From positions 1 through 30,964 of the IMG/VR virus record IMGVR_UViG_3300010354_000360: a stretch of 30,964 bases of DNA. One strand, 5' to 3'. The notes under the pieces were generated by a model that saw only the letters and a program-made list of their open reading frames with translations, did no database searches and was not told the DNA's origin. How positions within the stretch are numbered: position 1 is the stretch's first letter; every line of letters begins with the position of its first letter. The DNA is from a virus. A program made the position numbers and the translations under genes. This document shows, in pieces, positions 27,014-30,964 of this stretch.

Positions 27014-28273
27014 ATGTCTCAATTAACAGTTGGAACAGTTGTTACTGGAAATGCAAGTCTGACTACACAAGGTCTAAAGCTTCCATCCTTCAGCAACGCA
27101 GGAAGACCAGCAACACCAAATATCGGTCAGTTGATTTATAACACCGATGAAGGTAAAGCTCAAATTTGGAATGGAACTGAGTGGGATGAAGTTGGTGGTG
27201 GTATTCCAGAACCTCTAGATGCTACCAGAGGTGCTTATCTAGTATCTGATGGAGCTAATGGAGTTTTCTGGGCATATCCAGGGACAACAGTTGCGTCTGC
27301 TCCTCTAACTGGATTTAGATACAGAAGTATCATTACCCATGGTTATCTACTTGCTGGTTACAAAGGATCACAACCTTGGAAAACTGTAAATAAAACTTGG
27401 CATCCAACTGACATTACTTTCTATTGCGGTGAGCAATTAGACAGAGCAGGATCTTACATGGACTGCTGCTGGAGTGATTACAACGGTTATGCCTACGGAA
27501 CTGTTGATTCTTTCACTGGAAACTCTTCCCACACATCTTCAATCAATTTACATAGTGGTGTAAAGAGACAACAAGGAGATGGAACATATCAACCATCCAA
27601 CTATGGTTTTGATGGTGATGATCCAAGAGGTGTGATGGGATATAACGTTGCTGGTGGTTGGGATATGCCAGTTGGACGTGACTATCACGCAGGTGCTACA
27701 GCTCAAGTTCAGCAGCATGGGTACAACCTTGGTGGTGGAAGTTCAACGGTAGGTAAGCATCATTTCCCAACGGAAATTATGTATTCTACTAATTCATCTC
27801 CTGGTGGTGGAAACTGTGCGGCATGTGGTGATGAGGTTTATTCGTGGGCTTCAATGTCTGGCAACAGAGCATATATTAATAATTCCAATGATAGCTGGGC
27901 TGGATGGTCTTCAAACGCTGCTCCTGATGGTATTTGCAAATTCTTACCTTCCAAGTGGGGTCATTTTTATGCTGGAACTGGAAATAACGTCACTTCACCA
28001 TGGACTAAATACAGCGGAAGTAGTGGTGCTGGTCTAGTGAATGGAACTAAGGTTCGTGCTTATGGTGAAGAAAATTTCGAGATGGGTCAAGATTGGGGAT
28101 ACCTAATGGGTCAATATGATGGTCAGCAAAATAATCACACAACAAAGTGGAATTATAGCACGGATGTCGAAACAAATATGGGTGCTGCTACTAGACCAAA
28201 AGGACATTATGGACAATCATCAGGTGGATGTTGTTCTGCCGCAGCTACCGTAACAGCACAGAGAGCACAATAA
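27014..28273 (+). CDS. Propeller-like fibre protein, candidate receptor-binding protein
   Basis: A 419-residue protein. The N-terminal 65 residues form a fibre-type attachment segment (MSQLTVGTVVTGNASLTTQG, then IGQLIYNTDEGKAQIWNG and TEWDEVGGG). From about residue 105 come repeated kelch-like blocks: HGYLLAGYKGSQPWKTVNK, HGYNLGGGSSTVGKHHFPT, WGHFYAGTGNNVTSPWTKY and WGYLMGQYDGQQNNHTTKW. Spacing is irregular. The repeats suggest a beta-propeller. The end is cysteine-rich (SSGGCCSAAATV), and Trp, His and Tyr are abundant, as is common for host-contact surfaces. I recall similar proteins in many cyanomyoviruses. Its place at the end of the fibre cluster, with its own late promoter, fits a receptor-binding or tip protein. 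A neck decoration is an alternative. Confidence 0.65.
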   Translation: MSQLTVGTVVTGNASLTTQGLKLPSFSNAGRPATPNIGQLIYNTDEGKAQIWNGTEWDEVGGGIPEPLDATRGAYLVSDGANGVFWAYPGTTVASAPLTGFRYRSIITHGYLLAGYKGSQPWKTVNKTWHPTDITFYCGEQLDRAGSYMDCCWSDYNGYAYGTVDSFTGNSSHTSSINLHSGVKRQQGDGTYQPSNYGFDGDDPRGVMGYNVAGGWDMPVGRDYHAGATAQVQQHGYNLGGGSSTVGKHHFPTEIMYSTNSSPGGGNCAACGDEVYSWASMSGNRAYINNSNDSWAGWSSNAAPDGICKFLPSKWGHFYAGTGNNVTSPWTKYSGSSGAGLVNGTKVRAYGEENFEMGQDWGYLMGQYDGQQNNHTTKWNYSTDVETNMGAATRPKGHYGQSSGGCCSAAATVTAQRAQ

Positions 28274-29082
28274 TGAGATACCTAATTATCAACGAAAAGG
28301 AAATTAGACAAGAGCAGTTTGTCAATATGTCTGCTACTGGCGATACCCGCCTTCATTATAATGAAATGTTTTCTCTCATGCATTTCTCATGTGTTGAGGT
28401 AAGTGAAACAATCTTCCAAGTAATTTACAAAGAGTGGCAACACAAATACAAAGAAATTAGCAGAGAGCAGGCAGTAAATGGATCCAACTTCTTCTCTGAA
28501 GTTAGACCATATGGAAAGGTTTTAGCAACAACAACACAGCAAGGTTTTGCATATACACCAGCAAATCCTGGTCTGAAGGTTCAGGTAGAAATTACTGATG
28601 CTATCAGAAAAGAAATCGTAGATTTCATGTGTATCTTTGCAAAAGAAATCATCGAAGATGAGTATAATACTCGTTTTAGAGTTCTCAAAGATACCACTGA
28701 TCTAGAACAAGCATCGTGGGAAATTCAAAAGCACGAAGCAAGAGAGTGGCTCACATACAGAGGAGGAGATGGACACAGAACTCCTTTCTTAGATTATCTA
28801 GCAGTTGAAAGAGAATTAGACAAAGATTTTCTAGCAAATAAAATTCTAGAGAAGTCTGAAGAATATGAGGATAGATTATCAACCATGTTGGTTGAATATC
28901 AAAAACTACTCAAGAAATTTGAATCTTGCGAAACCGTATGGGACCTAAATATCCTATATGAAGATTATCTTGGAATTATTATGCCAACCAGTCAAGCAAT
29001 TGAACTCGGCAGAACTATTTCCGCAGATAATTGGGACAGAAAACCAGAGTATGAGGTAGATGCGTATGTCTTTAAGTTCTGA
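28273..29082 (+). CDS. Soluble phage protein, possible fibre assembly factor (269 residues)
   Basis: The start chosen is ATG 28273, which overlaps the preceding stop as TAATG; an ATG 45 bases upstream would add 15 residues that lie inside the previous gene and have no coding look. The protein (MRYLIINEKEIRQEQF) is charged and mostly helical. A Leu-rich helical C-terminal half (LANKILEKSEEYEDRL, then YQKLLKKFESC) suggests coiled coil. There is no signal peptide, membrane segment or enzyme motif that I can see. The stop-start overlap indicates translational coupling to the propeller-like protein, hence the inference that it helps fold or attach it. I do not recognise the family. Confidence 0.65.
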   Translation: MRYLIINEKEIRQEQFVNMSATGDTRLHYNEMFSLMHFSCVEVSETIFQVIYKEWQHKYKEISREQAVNGSNFFSEVRPYGKVLATTTQQGFAYTPANPGLKVQVEITDAIRKEIVDFMCIFAKEIIEDEYNTRFRVLKDTTDLEQASWEIQKHEAREWLTYRGGDGHRTPFLDYLAVERELDKDFLANKILEKSEEYEDRLSTMLVEYQKLLKKFESCETVWDLNILYEDYLGIIMPTSQAIELGRTISADNWDRKPEYEVDAYVFKF

Positions 29083-29875
29083 ATTTATCAATGATGTAAG
29101 AGCGATAGTTTCATCAAATACTGGAGATATCAAATTATCAAAAAGTTTTGTTGATGAGTTTGGTCTCACTGATAAAGATATGGCAGCTTTAGAAGCTAGC
29201 CTTCATTTCAACAGTGGGATGACGGAATATCAGTGCAAGCATTTTGTTGCTGATAGTCAATTGACTCCATGGAGAAAGGTTAGACAATCTTTCATGGAAT
29301 TGGAAACAAGATATCATGCTTATATTGAAGTAAGAAATAGCCTCAGAAAAGCAGAGATTCTCAGAAAAAAATTTGAGAAATCTATTGAGATGGCATGTGA
29401 TGAATTAGACAGAGAACTTATCATTATTGATAAAGAGAAAAATGATTATGATATTACTATCTGGAAAAGAAAGATTCGTCAAGCAGAATTAGAAATCAAA
29501 TATTTCCTAGACATTGTAGATAAGTATGTTGATGAAGATCATCCTCTAGAATACTTCATGGAAGAGCAAGAGGATGAGGAAAGAGTATATTGGATTGCTC
29601 GCATGGGTAAGCAAGCAGCAATGGATATTGTTTCTTACGGTCGCATCGGATCTGGCAACATGACATCGATTATGGATATGCCAGAGGAAGATCAAGTAAA
29701 AACTTTAGAAGTTGCCGTTCAGTATTCTGCAATGATTGGTGGTGGAATTGATAAACTCAATAAAATTATGGCACCGCAGATTCAAAATCAAATGCAAGCT
29801 GCTGGAATTCATTTGCCAAAATTGGAGCAGCATAAATATACAGGACAGTTGAAGTTGGAAGGAGATAACAAATGA
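29066..29875 (+). CDS. Coiled-coil phage protein of unknown function (269 residues)
   Basis: Two in-frame ATGs, 29060 and 29066, are possible. A GAGG at 29053-29056 is 9 bases from 29066 and only 3 from 29060, so 29066 (MSLSSEFINDVRAIV) is preferred. The start overlaps the end of the preceding gene by 17 bases. The middle is a long charged helix (RNSLRKAEILRKKFEKSIE and on to about residue 150), probably a coiled coil. It is followed by an acidic stretch (EEQEDEERVYW) and a Met/Gln-rich C-terminus (MAPQIQNQMQAAG). It looks cytoplasmic. A role in tail or fibre assembly is inferred from the operon; nothing in the sequence fixes the function. Confidence 0.65.
   Translation: MSLSSEFINDVRAIVSSNTGDIKLSKSFVDEFGLTDKDMAALEASLHFNSGMTEYQCKHFVADSQLTPWRKVRQSFMELETRYHAYIEVRNSLRKAEILRKKFEKSIEMACDELDRELIIIDKEKNDYDITIWKRKIRQAELEIKYFLDIVDKYVDEDHPLEYFMEEQEDEERVYWIARMGKQAAMDIVSYGRIGSGNMTSIMDMPEEDQVKTLEVAVQYSAMIGGGIDKLNKIMAPQIQNQMQAAGIHLPKLEQHKYTGQLKLEGDNK
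29831..29838 (+). promoter_or_regulatory. Candidate late promoter near the end of the coiled-coil gene
   Basis: CATAAATA lies in the last part of the 29066-29875 gene, 33 bases before the ATG at 29872. A GGAAGGAG ribosome binding site (29859-29866) follows. The octamer is identical to those before 11181 and 27014. Confidence 0.45.
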
Positions 29876-30087
29876 GGCATCTAGAATTGCTTCCTATTAT
29901 CCACTATACGATTTACGAAAGATTTGATCTCGAAGATAAGAACAAAGATCTAGATCGAGTGGCGTTAGAAAAATTATGCGAAAAGCATAAACCTCTAATC
30001 AGCATCAATGATTATGCATTTATTACTAAAGTGGTAGAAGAGTATGGTGAAACAATTCTCGATCCCGATCAATACAAAGCTGAATGA
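29872..30087 (+). CDS. Small protein of unknown function (71 residues)
   Basis: The ATG overlaps the preceding stop as ATGA, and a strong GGAAGGAG ribosome binding site lies 5 bases upstream in the previous gene. The protein (MRHLELLPIIHYTIYERFDL) is acidic and helical, with a pattern of charged and hydrophobic residues (VALEKLCEKHKPLISINDYA) but no motif that I recognise. Its last 44 bases overlap the start of the next gene in another frame. The tight overlaps on both sides suggest that its product works with the neighbours. Confidence 0.6.
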   Translation: MRHLELLPIIHYTIYERFDLEDKNKDLDRVALEKLCEKHKPLISINDYAFITKVVEEYGETILDPDQYKAE

Positions 30088-30964
30088 GGACTTTGTAGAA
30101 AATACATTTATTCCTTTTCTAAATCAATATAAAGATTATATTTACGATCTGTATTTTACATGTCGTATGCCACCTTTCGTACAAGATGCGATGGGTGATA
30201 CAATTGATGGCGATATCAGAGAGACGACATATAATGCTCTCTATATCTCAGAAAAAACTGGCATTCCATTGTCTGCCACATTCAATAATATCCAGGTAAT
30301 TCCAAACCAGGAAAACCTGGATATTTTTATTATGAATTTTAGACCTCTATATGAGGCTGGAGTTCGTATTGTCACTATCCCACATACATCATGGGTAATG
30401 ACAGGGCAGATTCAAAAGGAATTTCCAGAACTGTTTATAAAGAACACTATTCTCAGAGAGGTTACAAGACCAAATGAAATAGTGTCTTTAGCAAAGGCAG
30501 GTTTTCATTATATCAATCTAGATCGTGATCTCATGAGAGACCGCGATCAACTCAATAGGATTATGGAAGCAAAGGAATACTGTGCTTCTATTGGAAAACC
30601 AGTGAAGATTTCTTTGCTAGCAAATGAATGGTGCTGGGGTGGGTGTCCTATCATGCCAGAGCACTATCATTATAACATGACTAGAAGACCAGAGAACCCT
30701 CAGTATTTTCATTCTGATATTAGTAGGATCTCTTGTTCTTCGTGGGATGAGTATGATCCTGCAACTGCATTGAAAGCAGCAACACTTCCACCATGGAAAA
30801 AAGATTGGGAAGAATTTCTTGATCTTGGTATTGATGTTTTTAAAATGCATGGCAGAGAAAATGCCATGCGTTTGATGGAAACCATGGATATCGTGAAGCG
30901 TTGGGATGCTAACGAAGAATTGCTTTATCCACAATTCAACGACTATATCCAAGATGTGACATTG
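30044..30964 (+). CDS. Peptidase-U32-like protein with cysteine motif (3' truncated)
   Basis: The frame is open from an ATG at 30044 to the window edge (307 residues, no stop). The start MVKQFSIPINTKLNEDFVEN gives a plausible first beta strand, and an AGAAG sits a few bases upstream. The sequence follows the U32 TIM-barrel pattern: a YIYDLYFTCRMPPF strand with C40; LREVTRPNEIVSLAKAGFHY, then INLDRD; KISLLANEWCWGGCP followed by EHYHYN; and LGIDVFKMHGREN, which matches the Gly-Ile-Asp...Phe-Lys...Gly-Arg end of the U32 core. C197, C201 and C231, with C40, could hold an Fe-S cluster as in the UbiU/UbiV branch. U32 members include hydroxylase-type and RNA-modifying proteins as well as reported proteases; the reaction here is unknown. 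It overlaps the 71-residue gene by 44 bases. Confidence 0.6.
   Translation, partial: MVKQFSIPINTKLNEDFVENTFIPFLNQYKDYIYDLYFTCRMPPFVQDAMGDTIDGDIRETTYNALYISEKTGIPLSATFNNIQVIPNQENLDIFIMNFRPLYEAGVRIVTIPHTSWVMTGQIQKEFPELFIKNTILREVTRPNEIVSLAKAGFHYINLDRDLMRDRDQLNRIMEAKEYCASIGKPVKISLLANEWCWGGCPIMPEHYHYNMTRRPENPQYFHSDISRISCSSWDEYDPATALKAATLPPWKKDWEEFLDLGIDVFKMHGRENAMRLMETMDIVKRWDANEELLYPQFNDYIQDVTL

Follow-up and report, generated by a model that had tools for sequence, protein, structure and literature searches.

A probable U32-superfamily barrel protein of T4-like cyanophages and its possible role as a fused hydroxylase and methyltransferase

The window analyzed here is a 30,964-nucleotide stretch of viral DNA (IMG/VR record IMGVR_UViG_3300010354_000360). 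To judge from sequence similarity, the source is a T4-like cyanophage; the baseplate wedge protein shares 84% identity with its counterpart in Synechococcus phage ACG-2014j. Upstream of the gene considered here (30044–30964), fibre and virion structural ORFs are followed by homologues of T4-GC 351 (27014–28273; sericin-like, PHROG 1417, the last fibre-like gene), T4-GC 352 (28228–29082; PHROG 1604) and T4-GC 353 (29060–29875; PHROG 1409), and then by a 71-aa ORF (29872–30087), all on the plus strand. This order is common to most of the loci compared; 53 of 91 contain a match to the 71-aa ORF, which has no assigned family, its one PHROG match having an E-value of 0.23. An earlier note on this DNA, made from the letters alone, had placed the gene directly after fibre genes and coupled to them by overlap. 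A 44-nt overlap does exist at the start of the gene, but with the 71-aa ORF, and three hypothetical genes (28228–29082, 29060–29875 and 29872–30087) intervene between it and the last fibre-like gene. In phage S-ShM2, a stretch of about 6 kb containing other genes separates T4-GC 353 from the T4-GC 354 gene (the counterpart of 30044–30964). Genes for 2OG-Fe(II) oxygenases are found in the same region in relatives.

The frame at 30044–30964 (plus strand) begins with ATG and runs for 307 codons, with no stop, to the window edge, just as the earlier note described it. The five cysteines listed there (C40, C180, C197, C201 and C231) are all exactly placed, with C40 encoded at 30161–30163, C180 at 30581–30583 and C231 at 30734–30736, and the NEWCWGGCP block reported in it is present, beginning at residue 194 (residues 194–202, including C197 and C201; 30623–30649). 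Two further motifs are EHYHYN (residues 206–211; 30659–30676), of which E206, H207, Y208, Y210 and N211 are invariant in a 30-sequence phage alignment, and KMHGR (residues 267–271; 30842–30856). All of these features lie on the plus strand. The nearest relative, at locus L012, is 92% identical in protein and 86% in DNA, and the comparison indicates strong purifying selection (dS 0.90, dN 0.05). Because protein identity exceeds DNA identity, dS is far above dN, and the protein matches PHROG 1458 with an E-value of 2e-143, the frame is a real gene, namely the 5' part of a T4-GC 354 / PHROG 1458 gene, encoding a U32-type barrel domain.

The part in the window matches 123 isolate records, all of them cyanophages (121 at 60–80% identity), and at least 531 confirmed IMG/VR stretches; records of T4-GC 354 / PHROG 1458 are annotated as hypothetical. 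Both orthology and synteny place the gene in this family: Syn19_046, PSSM4_035 and PHM2_101 (T4-GC 354) are orthologous, with 60–69% identity over the window part and the same gene order, although several family records start inside the conserved N-terminal region. At L002, L004, L007 and L008, for example, the gene is annotated about 30–50 codons late, and conserved N-terminal sequence is lost. Since complete relatives are mostly of about 560 aa (about 562), the window holds the N-terminal 55% or so of the protein. Just past the position of the window edge, relatives have a CxxxCxxCxxC motif (C322, C326, C329 and C332 in L012), and in 26 of 30 full-length family members the C-terminal part matches the Pfam class I SAM methyltransferase family Methyltransf_24 (E-values up to 0.01, the best being 5e-11). 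For this C-terminal part, too, 123 isolate records match, broken down by name exactly as for the U32-like domain, and the window virus's own copy presumably has its C-terminal half as in these relatives. Two contigs from metagenome-assembled genomes, L010 (labelled Euryarchaeota) and L011 (labelled Dehalococcoidia), carry the phage gene and look like mis-binned cyanophage DNA.

Neither the window protein (P0001) nor the full-length phage relatives scanned matched Pfam U32 (PF01136) above the gathering cut-off, and the cyanophage domain alone gave only a weak signal (12%) in a direct single-profile comparison with TrhP, RlhA and UbiU. So, the U32 assignment rests on a chain of intermediates. 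The phage profile finds Chloroflexota homologues of about 410 aa (E-values near 1e-26) and also a 355-aa protein, L101, in genome G347, which exceeds the Pfam U32 cut-off (31.1 bits against 22.4) and matches the U32 structure 5d88 by sequence (E-value = 1.2e-7). Both of the two U32-like bacterial relatives scanned pass that cut-off (31.1 and 41.1 bits). A hidden Markov model built from 13 cellular U32-like proteins, including these two, and run with the database size set to 100,000, recovered P0001 (E-value = 8.2e-14) and all cyanophage members, the U32 proteins of phages RB69 and Thanatos (161 bits), and TrhP (1.6e-7) and RlhA (3.8e-5) of E. coli; UbiU appeared at an E-value of 25, UbiV was not listed, and the TIM-barrel controls MetF, TpiA, DapA and IspG were absent from the list. 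Likewise, hhalign matched the merged family profile to the U32 hydroxylases TrhP, RlhA and UbiU with a probability of 97% (E-value = 8.9e-11), whereas the reversed profile scored 0.1% and none of the same four controls exceeded 1%. Sequence comparison through these intermediates makes it very probable that the phage protein is a member of the U32 superfamily. The U32-like character proposed earlier is thus upheld by the indirect route, and the profile check suggested with it gave a divided answer, in that the direct Pfam search misses the family and the intermediate-based profiles match it. Among the papers searched, none tied U32 proteins to cyanophages in a relevant way.

An alignment of 21 sequences, drawn from cyanophages, T4-like coliphages, Chloroflexota and bacteria, has C197, C201 and C231 in every one (21/21), C40 in 10 and C180 in 14. 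C40 is unlikely to be a ligand because it is Ser or Thr in other cyanophages and absent from cellular relatives, and C180, kept in cyanophages, is missing from Chloroflexota and bacterial relatives. Both were rejected as Fe-S ligands, and with them the UbiV-style ligand set suggested earlier. The profile alignment puts C197 and C201 at C170 and C177 of TrhP and C231 at or near C193, with K267–R271 matching the KIEGR motif shared by TrhP, RlhA and UbiU. C170 and C177 are essential in vivo in TrhP (PMC6599085). The phage protein shares with TrhP/RlhA (PF01136) the TIM barrel, equivalents of these three cysteines, the KxxGR motif and profile similarity. It differs in that the essential E162 of TrhP aligns with Ser190, which is invariant in the 30-sequence phage alignment, and in that three of the four cysteines of the CX6CX15CX3/4C ligand set are present and four others follow further on, in the extra C-terminal CxxxCxxCxxC; the fused methyltransferase is a further difference. 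The family's own pattern has seven cysteines, made up of a central three and a C-terminal four. A reasonable guess would be a site-differentiated cluster on the central three and a second metal site on the C-terminal four. As the earlier note also supposed, the protein probably binds Fe-S, to which the conserved cysteines point. A scan of viral contigs for NExCxxxCP, with Trp excluded, gave two matches only, both unrelated and primase-like.

The gene neighbours of cellular relatives bear on the possible reaction. In three Dehalococcoidia (Chloroflexota) genomes, G093, G266 and G042, an O-methyltransferase gene lies immediately upstream of the U32-like gene and in the same orientation, and the two genes either overlap by 14 bp or are less than 30 bp apart; in G266 the O-methyltransferase belongs to Pfam Methyltransf_2, and those of G093 and G042 are homologous to it. 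This is the same pairing as that fused in the phages, although the three copies are closely related and the methyltransferase family differs. G252 and G347 each have a DAHP synthase gene immediately adjacent to the U32-like gene and in the same orientation, and in G681 a convergent DAHP synthase gene lies near it. G252 and G347 have three DAHP synthase copies each, and most of 18 genomes have one or two; assuming about two copies among about 1,700 genes, roughly 0.05 chance adjacencies would be expected in 21 loci, a rough figure that ignores relatedness. DAHP synthase is the entry to the shikimate pathway and so to prephenate. Prephenate has been proposed as the compound that supplies oxygen to U32 oxidases (PMC11574389), and these neighbours, together with the O-methyltransferases, give an independent hint of a shikimate-derived oxygen donor.

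U32 barrels are known as enzymes that put oxygen atoms on quinones and on the bases of RNA. In our working model, the gene product is a two-domain cyanophage enzyme. Its N-terminal domain, most of which lies in the window, would be a U32-superfamily TIM barrel with Fe-S held by C197, C201, C231 and the CxxxCxxCxxC motif; this barrel would hydroxylate a substrate without O2, with prephenate or a related shikimate-pathway metabolite as the donor of the hydroxyl oxygen, and the C-terminal class I SAM methyltransferase, outside the window, would then methylate the hydroxyl to give a methoxy group. We give this fusion of hydroxylase and O-methyltransferase about an even chance, the Fe-S cluster, the hydroxylation, the oxygen source and a single substrate shared by both domains all being inferred. 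The oxygen would probably come from a shikimate-pathway metabolite, and as a first guess the substrate may be a pyrimidine base, whether of RNA or of DNA. The complete and most specific version, in which a single chain uses prephenate as the donor and leaves a methoxy group on a nucleobase, either in the viral DNA or in the host's RNA, is rather unlikely. A single-chain hydroxylase and O-methyltransferase that places a methoxy group is, to our knowledge, so far undescribed in viruses. The nearest parallel is the tRNA pathway in which U32 hydroxylation by TrhP is followed by SAM-dependent O-methylation by TrmR (ho5U to mo5U; PMC6599085), with the difference that TrhP and TrmR are two separate proteins acting on tRNA.

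Several observations count against the working model. The phage protein has no match to Pfam U32, E162 is replaced by Ser190, the fourth cysteine of CX6CX15CX3C is absent, and the pattern of seven cysteines is a different one; in addition, methylenetetrahydrofolate reductase (MTHFR) barrels stand above U32 5d88 by Foldseek E-value, the cysteine loops are modelled with a pLDDT below 50, and the three genomes with an O-methyltransferase neighbour hold closely related copies, their methyltransferase moreover being of a different Pfam family. Cyanobacteria produce O2, so the need for an O2-independent route is not obvious. If the model is true, marine viruses may carry an enzyme that hydroxylates and then methylates in two steps. 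In any case, a testable function is proposed for a hypothetical gene present in 123 records of sequenced cyanophages as well as in hundreds of marine viral contigs, and a seven-cysteine, methyltransferase-fused branch would be added to the U32 oxidases, in viruses of oxygen-producing hosts.

Other readings were weighed against this one, beginning with the fold itself. The AlphaFold models have eight strand/helix units with confident barrel strands, and both cysteine regions are below 50 in pLDDT. The predicted fold resembles the TIM barrel of 5d88, though other barrels match too: the MTHFR chains that lead the Foldseek lists by E-value would suit an unrelated TIM barrel that is no U32 protein, and 5d88 has the highest target-normalised TM-score (0.64) among the matches listed. 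The fold alone cannot pick among TIM barrels, and the sequence does. MetF was silent in both hhalign and the cellular HMM search, on which ground MTHFR was rejected as the true relative, and the cysteines and the KxxGR motif agree with U32, so that the unrelated-barrel reading is scarcely credible. A quinone hydroxylase of the UbiU/UbiV type, serving as an auxiliary metabolic gene, would belong to the same U32 superfamily, and O-methylation also comes after quinone hydroxylation. The 4Fe-4S cluster has been demonstrated in UbiU/UbiV (PMC6747719), and the UbiV spacing of C39, C180, C193 and C197 (PMC6747719) resembles that of C40, C180, C197 and C201. Nevertheless, C40 and C180 vary in the family and the conserved cysteines differ; single-sequence hhalign comparisons with UbiU and UbiV gave probabilities at or below 0.7%, and the cellular HMM was close to silent on both. 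The UbiU/UbiV-type relationship put forward in the earlier note is therefore not borne out, and we consider this quinone reading very unlikely.

A U32-superfamily Fe-S barrel with altered chemistry, carrying out some other redox or group-transfer reaction whose product the fused methyltransferase acts on, is possible though doubtful. The substitution of Ser190 for the catalytic Glu of TrhP/RlhA, the seven cysteines in place of four, and the varied contexts of relatives, which include neighbourhoods of reductive dehalogenase genes and of fatty-acid synthesis genes, argue for it, whereas the DAHP synthase and O-methyltransferase neighbours fit a hydroxylation with a shikimate-derived donor. The position in a fibre operon could instead suggest that the protein modifies some component of the virion or of the cell surface, either a fibre protein or a glycan. 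Synteny with T4-GC 351–353 in most loci compared, and the nearby 2OG-Fe(II) oxygenase genes of relatives, would be in keeping with such a role; the separation of the gene from T4-GC 353 in S-ShM2, and the fact that known U32 enzymes work on nucleobases or quinones, make it quite unlikely.

The working model of a hydroxylase fused to an O-methyltransferase may also be compared with the proteins annotated as 'peptidase U32' in T4-like phages, RB69 ORF050c (L128:5983-7152) and Thanatos TH1_065 (L129:4992-6128). They belong to the same subfamily as the cyanophage protein and have equivalents of C197, C201, C231 and the CxxC motif, but they lack the methyltransferase domain and lie in a cytosine-arabinosylation gene cluster, near a thymidylate-synthase-like gene and sugar genes. 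The RB69-like protein may take part in making 5-hydroxycytosine; as the cytosine hydroxylase itself it was rejected, that step being assigned to the thymidylate-synthase-like enzyme (PMC13390438).

Other neighbourhoods were seen among cellular members. The Dehalococcoidia relatives at L119–L124 are near genes for reductive dehalogenase or Fe-S proteins, and at L119 a gap of 3 bp separates the U32-like gene from one resembling dihydroorotate dehydrogenase. Another clade of U32-like genes is found beside a type II fatty-acid synthesis cluster at L163, with a similar order at L165–L167, L169, L171 and L172.
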